Positions 2,038 through 5,642 of a stretch of DNA of 22,311 nucleotides are shown piece after piece (the stretch's first letter is position 1; every line of letters begins with the position of its first letter). Made by a program: the position numbers and the translations under genes. The notes below the pieces were generated by a model that worked only from the letters and a program-made list of their open reading frames with translations, ran no database searches and was not told the DNA's origin. The stretch is from a virus, in IMG/VR virus record IMGVR_UViG_3300032285_001869, positions 1 through 22,311 of that record. The stretch is one strand, 5' to 3'.

Positions 2038-2570
2038 TTTACGCCTGCTATATTTTTAACAGCACCTAAGGATTGCTCGATGCTCTTGATGTAAGACTGT
2101 AAGTCTGCTTGCTGTTTAGCTGCTGCCTGTGTTGCCTGTTGCTGTTGCTGTTGTTGCTGCGATGCTTGTTGTGTAGTCTGCTGTGGAGCTGCTTGTGTGG
2201 TACCGCCACCTGTACCGCCACCTGTACCGCCACCTAATGCTCCTGCTACATTACTAACTGTATCAACAGCATTGCCAACTTTGTTAACTACACCCCCAAC
2301 TTTACTGGCTGCGTTTCCAACTGTACTAGCTGTCTTTTGTGCTGCTGAACCTATACGGCTGCCTACAGCAGTAGCACCTCTGCCAATAGCAGAAGCTGCT
2401 GTACCTACGCCACGTGCTGCCGCACCAATTCCACTAGCTGCGGCTCTACCTAGTGCCATAGCACCTTGACCCACGGCTGCTCCAACTCTAGCTGCTCCGG
2501 CGGCTAGGGCTGGTAGGAACTCGTCTAGTTGTTCACGCTCCTTTGGGGAGACAAACTCGTCTAATCTCAT
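2034..2570 (-). CDS. Low-complexity Ala/Gly-rich, Gln-rich protein (178 aa)
   Basis: The protein starts MRLDEFVSPKE. Residues about 20-115 are almost entirely Ala, Gly, Val, Ser and Thr with periodic Arg/Lys, which reads as long, weakly amphipathic helices with glycine zipper-like spacing. A GGGT triple repeat follows, then a Gln/Ala tract with eight consecutive Gln, and a short C-terminal helix ending in VK. No enzyme motif is visible. Such composition suits a membrane-inserting, pore-forming or scaffolding protein, but this is inference. It is coupled at both ends by 4-nt ATGA overlaps (2570-2567 and 2037-2034). The coding DNA carries a 12-bp tandem repeat and CAG-type triplets prone to slippage. 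Confidence 0.7.
   Translation of the reverse strand: MRLDEFVSPKEREQLDEFLPALAAGAARVGAAVGQGAMALGRAAASGIGAAARGVGTAASAIGRGATAVGSRIGSAAQKTASTVGNAASKVGGVVNKVGNAVDTVSNVAGALGGGTGGGTGGGTTQAAPQQTTQQASQQQQQQQQATQAAAKQQADLQSYIKSIEQSLGAVKNIAGVK
2201..2235. repeat. Three tandem 12-bp units encoding GGGT
   Basis: The plus strand shows taccgccacctg repeated three times (2201, 2213, 2225) with only the last base changed. It encodes the glycine linker of the 178-aa protein. A nearby run of gctgtt-type triplets (about 2135-2160) encodes its polyglutamine tract. Confidence 0.9.
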
Positions 2571-3745
2571 CCAGCTAATGTCTTTAATAGTCTATTGCTG
2601 TACTCAATGCTTTCGCGTTTAGCACGGCCTGCTTCTTCTGCTCCGCCTGCTGCTGGTTCAGCTGCTGCGAAATCATCTGCTGGTGCTTCCATGTCTGCGT
2701 TCATAGCATCTGGTGCTGCTGGATCAGCAAAGTCACCGCCTTCTGGTGCTGGTGCTTCCATGTCTGTTCCTGTTGGCTCACCACCGATCATATCTTCTGG
2801 TTGAGCATCACCTGTTAGTGTGCGCACACCGTTTGACATTGTTTCACGTGTGGTTTTTAGTGCTGCTAATGCTGTCTGAATAGCAGGAGCAACTGCGGTC
2901 AAGAATGCCTTGGCCTGTTGCTGCCCCATTTCATCACGGATTGTATCACCTAATGATAATAGCTGATCGTTTTCCATGCCACTTAATTCTTCAATCCAAC
3001 GGCTAACTCTGTCAACCATTGTTTTTGCCGTTACCACAGCACTGGCTTTGTCTGTGGCGCTTTCTCTAACTTGACTCATATCTTCTCCTTGAATGCTTTC
3101 GTCATGGCCATTGTAGCCGTAATCTTCATCTGATCCAAACCCTGCTGAAGCAAGAGCGTATGAATCGTCAGTCTCACCACCTTCGTCGTGATCTCTGCTA
3201 GCCCACTGATCTTCAGCATCTTCCTGGGCTGCTTCTATATAGTCTCTACTGTAGTCAGGGTCAGATAAAAGATGCTTGATCATGTAATCGTCTACTTTAG
3301 CGTTACGATTAGCATATTCATCAGTGACTTCACCTTGTAGTGATTTTGGATCTACTGTTACTCGTCCTGACTCGTGATCTACGTGTGCTGTATAATAAAG
3401 TACTCCACCTGCTTCTTCGCCGTCATCGCCAATCCAGCTTACGTCAACTTGCCCATCGAATGTTTCTGGGTCATGTCCTTCTGCTGCCATTGTTTCGCGC
3501 TGTAGCAATTCTGCGTTGATAGCATCTAGCATCCATTGTGCTTTAGTAAATGCTTCGTTTTCCACAGTCTCGTTGAAGCTGGCGCTTTGTTTAAAATTGT
3601 ATACCTGAGTGCGCAATCTGTTACGAGAGTCTTCTAGCTGCTCATTGGTATAAGACTCGAACTTTACTCGTTGTCCGAAAGTTCGCTCTAATGTTTCGTT
3701 GAGCTTTTTAGAATCAGCTCTAGTAAAAAAGTCAGTTGTTTTCAT
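2567..3745 (-). CDS. Acidic 392-aa phage structural or internal protein, function unknown
   Basis: The N-terminus MKTTDFFTRADSKK resembles the capsid-targeting type of start seen elsewhere in the window. Residues about 30-85 are helical (YTNEQLEDSRNRLRT and onward). A central beta-rich part (about 95-140) and a very acidic stretch with DEDYGYNGHDE follow. Residues about 230-310 are helical, and a Pro/Ala/Asp/Glu-rich low-complexity region (about 315-375) precedes a basic C-terminal helix ending LLKTLAG. The strong charge and helix content would suit a scaffold or head-core protein of a T4-like phage, but I cannot name the family. GGGGA lies just before the ATG, and a late-promoter-like AATAAATA lies 26-33 nt upstream. 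It starts the operon that runs down to 1678. Confidence 0.75.
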   Translation of the reverse strand: MKTTDFFTRADSKKLNETLERTFGQRVKFESYTNEQLEDSRNRLRTQVYNFKQSASFNETVENEAFTKAQWMLDAINAELLQRETMAAEGHDPETFDGQVDVSWIGDDGEEAGGVLYYTAHVDHESGRVTVDPKSLQGEVTDEYANRNAKVDDYMIKHLLSDPDYSRDYIEAAQEDAEDQWASRDHDEGGETDDSYALASAGFGSDEDYGYNGHDESIQGEDMSQVRESATDKASAVVTAKTMVDRVSRWIEELSGMENDQLLSLGDTIRDEMGQQQAKAFLTAVAPAIQTALAALKTTRETMSNGVRTLTGDAQPEDMIGGEPTGTDMEAPAPEGGDFADPAAPDAMNADMEAPADDFAAAEPAAGGAEEAGRAKRESIEYSNRLLKTLAG

Positions 3746-3770: not shown

Positions 3771-3778
3771 TATTTATT
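3771..3778 (-). promoter_or_regulatory. T4-type late promoter core (AATAAATA)
   Basis: AATAAATA on the minus strand, one mismatch from TATAAATA, sits directly after the stop of the 147-aa gene. The leader would be about 20 nt and carry GGGGA before the ATG at 3745. The surrounding 35 bases are very AT-rich, so chance occurrence is possible. Confidence 0.45.
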
Positions 3779-3780
3779 AC

Positions 3781-4224
3781 TTATTTGGCCAAAAGGGTAG
3801 CTGCTTTTTTGTGATACTCAGATGCGTCTTTGCTGTAACACATACGAGCCATATACAAATCCATCTTGAAAGCGTCTTGATTTAGGCGGGCAGCATTGTA
3901 TTTTTCTTTGAAAATCTGATAATCCTGTAGTGCTAGTCCAAATCTAAGATCAGCTTGATAGAGTTCTTTAACACGGCCTTGGTTTTTACTTTGGCTCAAT
4001 GCTAACAAGTTAGCTATCTTGATAGCCACTTTGTTTAAGCTGATGCTTTGGTATATTAGTTCGCCATCCATGTAGATATCTTTAAGGGCGTCTCTGCTGA
4101 CTATCAAAACATTGCCTATGAGGATGCCAGCTTCTGTCTTTACAGGAATTAGGAATTCGTCTTGGGCTAGCTTTTCGTGTACTTTGGTTATTACACGATC
4201 TAGCTTTTGCTGGATGTTAGTCAT
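3781..4224 (-). CDS. Unrecognised 147-aa protein
   Basis: No family recognised. The first part is helix then strand (EFLIPVKTEAGILIGNVLIV), followed by a long helical body rich in Lys, Gln, Tyr and Ala (residues about 60-147) ending in KKAATLLAK. It is single-domain, soluble and without signal peptide. The ATG at 4224 follows the T-run of a perfect hairpin by one base, so it has no normal leader. The only Shine-Dalgarno candidate is AGGG (4238-4235), lying in the loop and 3' arm of that hairpin. A late-promoter-like GTTAAATA (4255-4248) would start RNA inside the hairpin and free this site. The gene is therefore probably expressed only late; see the findings. Confidence 0.75.
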   Translation of the reverse strand: MTNIQQKLDRVITKVHEKLAQDEFLIPVKTEAGILIGNVLIVSRDALKDIYMDGELIYQSISLNKVAIKIANLLALSQSKNQGRVKELYQADLRFGLALQDYQIFKEKYNAARLNQDAFKMDLYMARMCYSKDASEYHKKAATLLAK

Positions 4225-4225
4225 G

Positions 4226-4248
4226 AAAAAAGGACCCTGTGGTCCTTT
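4226..4248 (-). terminator. Rho-independent terminator or RBS-masking hairpin
   Basis: On the minus strand AAAGGACC (4248-4241), a loop ACAG, and GGTCCTTT (4236-4229) form a perfect 8-bp stem ending in a run of six T (4231-4226). It follows the stop of the coiled-coil/TM gene by about 17 nt and directly abuts the start codon of the next gene. It can act as a terminator of upstream RNA and also mask the AGGG of the downstream gene. Confidence 0.8.
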
Positions 4249-4255
4249 ATTTAAC
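4248..4255 (-). promoter_or_regulatory. Late-promoter-like GTTAAATA overlapping the terminator stem
   Basis: GTTAAATA keeps the TAAATA core of the T4 late promoter (two mismatches in the first two bases). The expected +1 is near 4242, inside the 5' arm of the hairpin, so RNA from it could not form the stem. Confidence 0.4.
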
Positions 4256-4265
4256 TGCTACTATT

Positions 4266-4592
4266 TTATAGTCCCAAGAACTTGAGTATTGCGGGAAAGT
4301 TAGTTGTGTGTAACCAACCTGCGCCTGCTGCGAATGCCAGTGCTACCATTAGATACATTTGCCACTTGTTTTTGATTTTTTCTAGGTCTTTGACCTTACC
4401 AGCTAGCTCGCCGTGCTGTTTAGATGATTCGTCACGCATAGTAGTCAGCGTGGTCAACAAGGTTGTGTGATTATTAGAGATGTCATTCTTGACATCGTCA
4501 ATCTTTTCGTCAATGTTAGATACTTGTACTTCAAGTACGCTTACACGTTCGGGTATTGTCGCTAGTTGCGCTGCTGCTGATGCTCTGGCCAT
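4266..4592 (-). CDS. Coiled-coil protein with one C-terminal membrane segment
   Basis: A 108-residue protein. Residues about 13-72 form a heptad-patterned coiled coil (RVSVLEVQVSNIDEKIDDV and onward to KVKDLEKIK). A single hydrophobic segment, residues about 79-97 (YLMVALAFAAGAGWL), follows, then a short hydrophobic tail FPAILKFLGL. The layout resembles XhlA-type haemolysin/holin-accessory proteins, which suggests a role in lysis or inner-membrane anchoring, but this is an architectural likeness only. AAAGGA lies about 10 nt before the ATG; a two-codon reading frame (ATG CCA TAA) lies in between. The leader is about 85 nt from a late-promoter-like GATAAATA and holds a small hairpin at 4637-4625. 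Confidence 0.75.
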   Translation of the reverse strand: MARASAAAQLATIPERVSVLEVQVSNIDEKIDDVKNDISNNHTTLLTTLTTMRDESSKQHGELAGKVKDLEKIKNKWQMYLMVALAFAAGAGWLHTTNFPAILKFLGL

Positions 4593-4624
4593 TATGGCAT
4601 TTTCCTTTGTATGTTAAGTCAAGT

Positions 4625-4637
4625 GCTCGCTCCGAGC
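4625..4637 (-). promoter_or_regulatory. Leader hairpin GCTCG-GAG-CGAGC
   Basis: A perfect 5-bp GC-rich stem with a GAG triloop lies in the leader of the coiled-coil/TM gene. It shares the CGGAGCG core with the hairpin at 5625-5611. No T-run follows, so it is not a terminator. Confidence 0.5.
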
Positions 4638-4684
4638 CATGTGCCTAAGTTAAGAATGCCTAATGGTTTATGCCTTTGATACTT

Positions 4685-4692
4685 TATTTATC
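4685..4692 (-). promoter_or_regulatory. T4-type late promoter core (GATAAATA)
   Basis: GATAAATA has one mismatch from TATAAATA and lies directly after the end of the 131-aa gene. It is the only promoter candidate I see for the coiled-coil/TM gene. Confidence 0.45.
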
Positions 4693-4695
4693 AGC

Positions 4696-5091
4696 TTATG
4701 TTAGTTTTTGGATTATAGTATTGATTTTATCACCCGTTGTTTTAAACACGGGCACAGCAAAGTCTGCTGTATTATTTAGTTGTGATATTATAGGAACACC
4801 GTCTAAGTCCTGTTTTAGCAGGGCTACAGGATCCCCGTCGTCCCAAAATACATCTTCACGTTCTACAGTGAATTCGTATATCCAATGGGCAGCTTTGCCT
4901 GTCCACGGGTCTGGCAAACGTCCTGTTTCTCGCACAGGATCAATATCGTCGATGATCATGGCCCTAAGATTTATAGCCTGGGTCAACGAATTGAAGTTTG
5001 CCTGTTGGCTTTGCCGTAGATGATCTGTGTCGGATCTCGTTGGGCGTGTTCTGGTGATGTCCACCATTGTTGTGATTTGATAGCGTTCCAT
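4696..5091 (-). CDS. 131-aa phage protein, function unknown
   Basis: I do not recognise a characterised family, though the style (MERYQITTMVDITRTRPTRSDTD at the start) is familiar from hypothetical proteins of T4-like aquatic phages. The N-terminal half is basic and Gln/Asn-rich (LRQSQQANFNSLTQAINLRAM). The second half holds IDPVRETGRLPDPWTGKAAHW, EFTVEREDVF and a C-terminal strand-helix. It has no signal peptide or membrane segment. There is no Shine-Dalgarno sequence; TGTAAATA (5109-5102) stands so close that late RNA would have about a 5-nt leader. The strong terminator at 5141-5115 separates it from the structural gene upstream. Confidence 0.75.
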   Translation of the reverse strand: MERYQITTMVDITRTRPTRSDTDHLRQSQQANFNSLTQAINLRAMIIDDIDPVRETGRLPDPWTGKAAHWIYEFTVEREDVFWDDGDPVALLKQDLDGVPIISQLNNTADFAVPVFKTTGDKINTIIQKLT

Positions 5092-5173: not shown

Positions 5174-5587
5174 TTAAGCGAGTGTGTTTGCGCTTAGTTG
5201 TAGTTCAGTGATTGTGAACGCTGAAGCTGACTGACCGCTTGCTGCTGCTAGAGCATCTTTCAAAGCACCGTATGTGCCAGAAGTTGTTAGACCTGGGCCA
5301 GTGTTGAATGTAGCTGCGTCTACGCAGAATGTTACAATGCTGTTTGATGTAACTGCTGCTGGTGTGCCGATGATTACTGGGCTAGCTACAGTTTGAACAG
5401 CGCGAACTACGTCAGCAAAGTTGCTGTCTGCTGCTGAGTAGCTTGTGTGCATATTGAATGTAGATGTTGCTACAGAAATAGACACAAATGAAGGCTGATA
5501 GCCGTAAACAGCAATTGGCTTAGCGATTAGATAGTTTGCTTTGACTGTTGAGTCAGGTGTTGGTACGTTGGTATATGTCCATGCCAT
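5174..5587 (-). CDS. Small, probably abundant virion protein (137 aa)
   Basis: The sequence is rich in Ala, Ser, Thr and Val, with few charged residues and alternating strand patterns (FVSISVATSTFNM, SNSIVTFCVDAATF, AFTITELQLSANTLA), as in small beta-rich capsid-decoration or fibre proteins. No enzymatic motif is seen. It has the best-equipped expression unit in the window: an exact TATAAATA late promoter (5642-5635), a 5' stem-loop, a strong AAGGAGA ribosome-binding site 7 nt before the ATG, and a strong terminator behind. This isolation as a single-gene unit argues for a high-copy structural protein. The exact role is not known. Confidence 0.75.
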   Translation of the reverse strand: MAWTYTNVPTPDSTVKANYLIAKPIAVYGYQPSFVSISVATSTFNMHTSYSAADSNFADVVRAVQTVASPVIIGTPAAVTSNSIVTFCVDAATFNTGPGLTTSGTYGALKDALAAASGQSASAFTITELQLSANTLA

Positions 5588-5610
5588 GATAAGTTCTCCT
5601 TAAATTTATA

Positions 5611-5625
5611 GTCCCGCTCCGGGAC
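5611..5625 (-). promoter_or_regulatory. 5' stem-loop GTCCCG-GAG-CGGGAC
   Basis: A perfect 6-bp GC-rich stem with a GAG triloop begins about 4 nt from the expected +1 of the late promoter. 5'-terminal hairpins of this kind are known to protect mRNA from decay. The weak tail (TATAAATTT) makes a terminator for the gene before less likely. Confidence 0.55.
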
Positions 5626-5634
5626 TGGCATGTT

Positions 5635-5642
5635 TATTTATA
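5635..5642 (-). promoter_or_regulatory. Exact T4 late promoter TATAAATA
   Basis: The only perfect match to the T4 late -10 element seen in the gaps. It sits in the short gap after the ligase-like gene and upstream of the 137-aa structural gene. Use would require phage sigma and clamp factors (gp55/gp33 type), which are not in this window. Confidence 0.75.

Follow-up and report, generated by a model that had tools for sequence, protein, structure and literature searches.

The window analysed here is the whole of a 22,311-base IMG/VR virus record, and the element under study is read throughout on its minus strand: cagTTAAATAAAGGACCACAGGGTCCTTTTTTCATG. It lies between a gene for a 108-aa protein and a gene for a 147-aa protein, and consists of a putative late promoter motif, a hairpin whose first base is also the last A of GTTAAATA, a T-run and the start codon of the 147-aa gene (Table 1). 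A sequence-only reading of this DNA had proposed a late promoter nested in a terminator hairpin, and its coordinates for GTTAAATA, the 8-bp hairpin, the T-run, AGGG and the ATG all hold. It had also put the +1 near 4242, within the 5' arm, which agrees with the position predicted from T4, where the late motif TATAAATA occupies -13 to -6 (PMC1524935).

Table 1. Features of the element and its surroundings in the window
Feature	Position	Strand	Basis
Late promoter motif GTTAAATA (putative)	4255-4248	minus	Sequence; TAAATA enriched upstream of genes; 71/71 relatives' leaders
Hairpin AAAGGACC-ACAG-GGTCCTTT	4229..4248	minus	About -10.5 kcal/mol; paired in all distinct relatives
Stem arms AAAGGACC / GGTCCTTT; loop ACAG	4248-4241 / 4236-4229; 4240-4237	minus	Sequence
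AGGG, candidate Shine-Dalgarno (SD) site, in loop and 3' arm	4238-4235	minus	Sequence; ten bases before ATG
T-run (T6 following the GC core), intrinsic-terminator-like	4231-4226	minus	Sequence; at least six T in 28/31 distinct cores
C, then ATG	4225, then 4224-4222	minus	Sequence
Predicted +1 of late RNA, C (nearest purine A4243, adjacent)	4242	minus	Expected from T4 spacing
Controlled gene, 147-aa protein, uncharacterised phage family	3781..4224	minus	Sequence, family alignment
Upstream gene, 108-aa coiled-coil protein, C-terminal hydrophobic segment	4266..4592	minus	Sequence
Late motif GATAAATA of upstream gene	4685..4692	minus	TAAATA before upstream gene in 69/69 loci
Late motif AATAAATA of downstream gene	3771..3778	minus	TAAATA after 147-aa gene in 63/63 loci
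Ordinary boundary: terminator, then late motif, before ORF 4696-5091	5144-5119, then 5107-5102	minus	Same order in relative G007

The hairpin was not listed by a simple terminator scan, although its 5-bp GC core and six T are conserved, because three or four T are left when the A-T pairs are counted as stem (8 bp); six T follow when the stem is taken as the GC core. Such a core with three to four unpaired U would make a moderate terminator at best. A search of 4000-4700 against Rfam gave no match at E values up to 1. An upstream inverted repeat, ACTATAAAATAGT, was considered as part of the element but discarded, since it contains the stop codon of the upstream gene and varies irregularly between relatives.

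Neither PHROGs nor 50,697 annotated phage records (INPHARED) contained a match to the 147-aa ORF, and single-protein searches with it found no relatives; these were reached only by way of the neighbouring gene and by the DNA pattern. Matches of the family in PHROG, Pfam and PDB were only marginal and inconsistent, and those to the S4 domain and other Pfam entries were set aside as weak. The protein was modelled with AlphaFold2 at a pLDDT of 91. A structure search with this model found no close solved structure, and its Foldseek matches were uncharacterised proteins of uncultured and jumbo phages, including RaK2 and fHe-Yen9-04. The nearest annotated relatives of the neighbouring exonuclease belong to GAP32-like jumbo phages. 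GAP32_289, annotated as a virion structural protein, was tested as the positional counterpart of the 147-aa gene and rejected, and GAP32_292 is a marginal match at best. The host search found no relative in genome contigs.

The downstream gene (2567-3745) belongs to phrog_14154, head and packaging, and a homologous upstream gene is present in 59 of 69 loci. The 108-aa upstream protein shows sub-threshold similarity to XhlA-type holin accessory proteins. Its leader (4593-4692, about 90 nt) carries repeated AGGCA words and a GCTCGGAGCGAGC hairpin, is similar in the relative G007, and is possibly another structured leader. In the leader (5588-5640) of ORF 5174-5587, TATAAATA is followed by a hairpin, AGTCCCGGAGCGGGACT, with no T-run, a possible 5' stabilising stem-loop. 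A perfect TTGACA-17-TATAAT promoter (1681-1653) precedes the exonuclease gene (917-1645), in contrast to the late motifs of its neighbours.

Conservation of the element and its putative promoter motif

A pattern scan (TTAAATAAAGGNNCN{3,9}GNNCCTTTTTT) was run over 2.9 million viral contigs, with counts taken as distinct matches in the returned loci. An ORF-opening ATG stands 0-1 nt after the T-run in 50 of the 57 distinct matches (window included), and the 53 complete ORFs obtained align as a single family; the co-occurrence of hairpin pattern and ORF start is not due to chance. Since this set had been selected by the hairpin, relatives were collected again by protein alone, and as the 38-row family alignment was too divergent to be usable for scanning, two sub-family alignments were used. 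The protein collection gave 255 and 27 relatives, with 107 loci kept. Together with the window and the locus L003, the relatives with an intact leader make up 71 distinct leaders, a set that leans to the same clade because the query alignments were built from hairpin-bearing members. All 71 have TAAATA on the 5' arm, the hairpin, the T-run and an ATG 0-1 nt on.

The proteins behind these leaders form 18 clusters below 60% identity (mean 45% amino acid identity, lowest 26%), and four-fold degenerate sites in the same genes are 36% identical, which is near saturation. TAAATA is kept letter for letter in all 71 leaders and in 18/18 clusters. The first four base pairs of the core are unbroken in 31/31 distinct cores, and two of them show two-sided changes among relatives: pair 3 is A-T (26), G-C (3) or G-T (2) and pair 4 is C-G (26) or A-T (5). 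Loops vary in both length and sequence. The first relative found (44-45% identity, L003-L005) already had this layout, though its stem differs: GTTTAAATAAAAGGGCCCAGTGGGCCCTTTTTTATG. The T-run lies 0-1 nt from the ATG in 114/114 distinct family sites when all loci are counted, and the GG-to-ATG spacing is 10 nt in 58 of the 71 leaders, so that terminator geometry and translation geometry both look constrained at the sequence level. The element is absent in the most distant homologues, L006 (HMM E 5e-11) and L002 (E 3e-4), where the upstream genes are tightly packed. Outside the family, 48 other nested sites in all loci share no common gene, and their starts are mostly scattered or absent; a scan for an AAAGC-type nested stem gave 12 scattered matches, likewise with no common gene.

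No hexamer is more enriched upstream of genes than TAAATA, at 21.6-fold in the window and 11.8-fold in G007, a relative of 363,943 bases in which the element is also present. A gp55 homologue, a gp55-like late sigma, is encoded in G007 (E 3.4e-7) and in a further relative (G005). The TAAATA core upstream of genes and the gp55-type sigma of the relatives argue for a T4-type, gp55-dependent late promoter. Position -12 is T in 17/18 clusters, whereas the other late motifs of these phages favour A (44/81), which leaves the strength of the promoter in doubt.

Among approximately 50 terminator-like hairpins outside genes in G007, only the element has TAAATA on its stem. Most other terminators of this genome lie at a distance from the next start, and several gene boundaries are ordered terminator, late motif, gene. 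In two other G007 genes a T-run touches the ATG, with sigma-70-like elements in or beside the hairpin. One of them, on the minus strand, encodes a dNMP kinase (L235; G007:C1 39210-39854 plus leader); its ATG directly follows the hairpin and T-run, and its leader has TTGACA-17-TATTAT with the -10 inside the hairpin. Across loci L235 and L387-L390, this sigma-70-like promoter is conserved in four phages and the hairpin is found in G007 alone. The other is a 118-aa ORF on the plus strand (L241; G007:C1 147547-147900 plus leader), in which TACAAT stands beside the hairpin AATATCCTAGCAT...ATGCTAGGATATTTTTATG, AGGA lies in the 3' arm and the T-run touches the ATG. On another virus contig (L254, 152-190), an ORF called by eye as dihydrofolate-reductase-like directly follows TAAATA and AAGCCAGGG...CCCTGGCTTTTTT; this may be an independent nested case, although the pattern that detected it had an ATG built in.

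Predicted folding of readthrough and nested-promoter RNA

The sequence-only reading held that readthrough RNA would fold and either terminate or hide the AGGG site of the 147-aa gene, and that RNA from the late promoter would leave AGGG free. The cost of opening -16 to +8 around the start was computed from folding predictions, in which RNA starting at the predicted +1 keeps little of the 5' arm. In the window, the predicted cost is 12.4 kcal/mol in readthrough RNA vs 2.2 in RNA from 4242, and averages 12.0 vs 3.0 kcal/mol over the 71 leaders, with a difference above 4.5 in every one of them. Comparable predicted values were obtained for the long and short RNAs of T4 gene 49 (17.7 vs 3.5 kcal/mol) and gene e (18.1 vs 4.6). 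The hiding of the start region in readthrough RNA is thus supported in silico. Pairing of the start codon with GUUA, seen in the fold of readthrough RNA, was rejected as a feature, as it is not kept in relatives with CTTAAATA.

The release of AGGG is borne out in part. The predicted opening cost falls as proposed, but by a stricter and less favourable measure the GG in the 3' arm of the window remains largely paired even in late RNA (unpaired probability 0.002 to 0.05 in the folding model), here in weak alternative pairs. In L003 and some other members, late RNA would retain a 4-bp GC hairpin. AGGG as an SD site fares similarly: 60 of the 71 leaders contain AGG or AGGG, but nine have only GG and two have neither, so the site is weak and not universal, although its strength in the window (-3.7) is ordinary for the phage (gene median -4.2). 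On these models, the occlusion and release mechanism of the sequence-only reading is plausible.

Competing readings of the element

We propose, with a probability of roughly 0.6, that the element is a self-insulating late promoter which silences readthrough from neighbouring late genes. The phage late sigma would start RNA at TTAAATA, with the first transcribed base inside the 5' arm of the hairpin. Polymerase arriving from the upstream late gene would copy the full hairpin; part of it would terminate, providing the 3' end of that gene, and in RNA that reads through, the start region would be locked within the hairpin. RNA from the nested promoter, being without the outer 5' arm, would escape termination and expose the AGG/AUG region, and the 147-aa gene would be expressed from its own promoter only. 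A T-run of at least six in 28/31 cores is superfluous for hiding an SD site and hence speaks for a terminator function; the fixed distance from T-run to ATG is superfluous for a terminator and speaks for a translational role. Together, they favour the combined reading.

The strongest alternative, which we nevertheless consider unlikely, is that the element is only a terminator with an overlapping promoter, compactly packed, in which hiding of the start is a by-product of no selective value. The same T-run would be expected of it, the loops vary freely and AGG is not universal. However, a terminator needs neither the fixed spacing between T-run and ATG (114/114) nor a fixed GG-ATG distance, and most other terminators of G007 leave a gap before the next start, several having the late motif after the T-run.

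The sequence-only reading regarded the element as a T4 gene e-like timing switch; in such a switch, early or middle RNA reading into the gene would be silent and late RNA active. T4 49 and e, which have been described as switches of this kind, have the same geometry, and the late motif, occlusion, release and geometry of that interpretation are retained in silico. The timing is not supported. A late motif of its own precedes the upstream gene in 69/69 loci and the next gene in 63/63. Within 3 kb upstream, sigma-70-like sites on the sense strand are at or below chance (0.33 vs 0.54 in shuffles) and late motifs exceed it (5.2 vs 2.0), the clear sigma-70 promoter of the window (1681-1653) sits downstream of the 147-aa gene, and another terminator (5144-5119) precedes the upstream gene. 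A separation of early from late expression is therefore improbable here. Since late motifs lie upstream in every locus and sigma-70-like sites are not enriched, the most likely source of the RNA to be silenced is late transcription of the neighbouring gene, and the element would separate two late genes.

Two further explanations have very little probability. In one, a phage protein, perhaps the 147-aa product itself, would bind the hairpin as a translational operator; GGACC/GGTCC is retained in most members, and T4 gp43 and RegA regulate through binding of translation initiation regions (PMC3014915), but the 16 loop types and compensatory stem changes point to pairing rather than sequence recognition, and no RNA-binding domain was recognised in the 147-aa family beyond the weak S4 matches. 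The other takes TTAAATA as the A-rich side of a bidirectional terminator and not as a promoter; although it is A-rich and adjoins the stem, and hairpins with TAAATA on the stem occur by chance at the 48 other sites, this is hard to reconcile with the invariance of TAAATA in 18 clusters, its rank as top hexamer upstream of genes and the T within TTAAATA, which disrupts complementarity to the T-run.

Returning to the self-insulating late promoter, we tentatively suggest a broader generalisation, less probable than that reading itself: a distinct regulatory module of about 35 nt may exist in which a promoter is built into an intrinsic terminator and the U-run extends into the start codon. It would serve simultaneously as 3' end for one gene, as promoter for the gene that follows and as an RNA lock against all foreign transcripts. 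Such a module would have become fixed in a single gene family of jumbo T4-like phages, and these phages would have evolved it separately around sigma-70 promoters. The element would be a natural test case of phages insulating neighbouring late genes from one another, beyond the separation of early from late, and a compact part with which to drive a gene and at the same time bar readthrough into it.

Comparison with known systems

The closest counterpart is the leader of T4 gene 49, which encodes endonuclease VII (NC_000866), where AATAAATA is directly followed by CCCTTATC...GGTAAGGG. Its SD lies in the 3' arm, with the ATG 6 nt on, and its +1 falls within the 5' arm, as is predicted for the window; it differs in that its spacer, UUUAUU, is no terminator-like U-run and its SD, AAGGG, is stronger. 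Gene 49 is listed among those whose RNA is kept silent by its structure if transcription starts at earlier promoters (PMC3014915). In T4 gene e (lysozyme), too, late promoters lie on the 5' side of a hairpin that hides the SD, and for its long RNA a 100-fold reduction in synthesis has been reported (PMC3014915). Its strong SD (AGGAGG), lack of a U-run, two late motifs and long transcripts made early set it apart. The e-type geometry recognised by the sequence-only reading, with the predicted promoter +1 in the 5' arm of an SD-hiding hairpin, is upheld in silico by the leader comparison and by folding.

In I-TevI, I-TevII, I-TevIII, segB and Aeh1 mobE, RNA from the late or middle promoter similarly lacks part of an SD-hiding hairpin, but these are homing endonuclease genes within early or middle units, and the excerpts of PMC2988022 that deal with their leaders describe no terminator function. 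T4 genes of such design sit behind early or middle genes, as far as these excerpts and PMC3014915 go. Judged by its predicted +1 within the 5' arm and its modelled hiding and release, the element would belong to the class of T4 e, 49 and I-TevI. The ordinary boundary of terminator then late promoter (window 5144-5102; G007) shares with it the motif, the terminator types and the separation of late genes; there, in contrast, the late motif comes after the T-run, which leaves the hairpin clear of promoter, SD and start.

The logic of T4 e and 49 was previously known from single genes of T4-like phages. Here, a version with a terminator-like hairpin is shared by all the close relatives that were analysed, in large T4-like phages from water, at protein identities as low as about 26%; the 147-aa protein family concerned is found in no annotated phage among those searched. 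The element thus shares its logic with T4 49 and e but carries in addition a U-run of the terminator type, and the unwanted RNA probably comes from neighbouring late genes.
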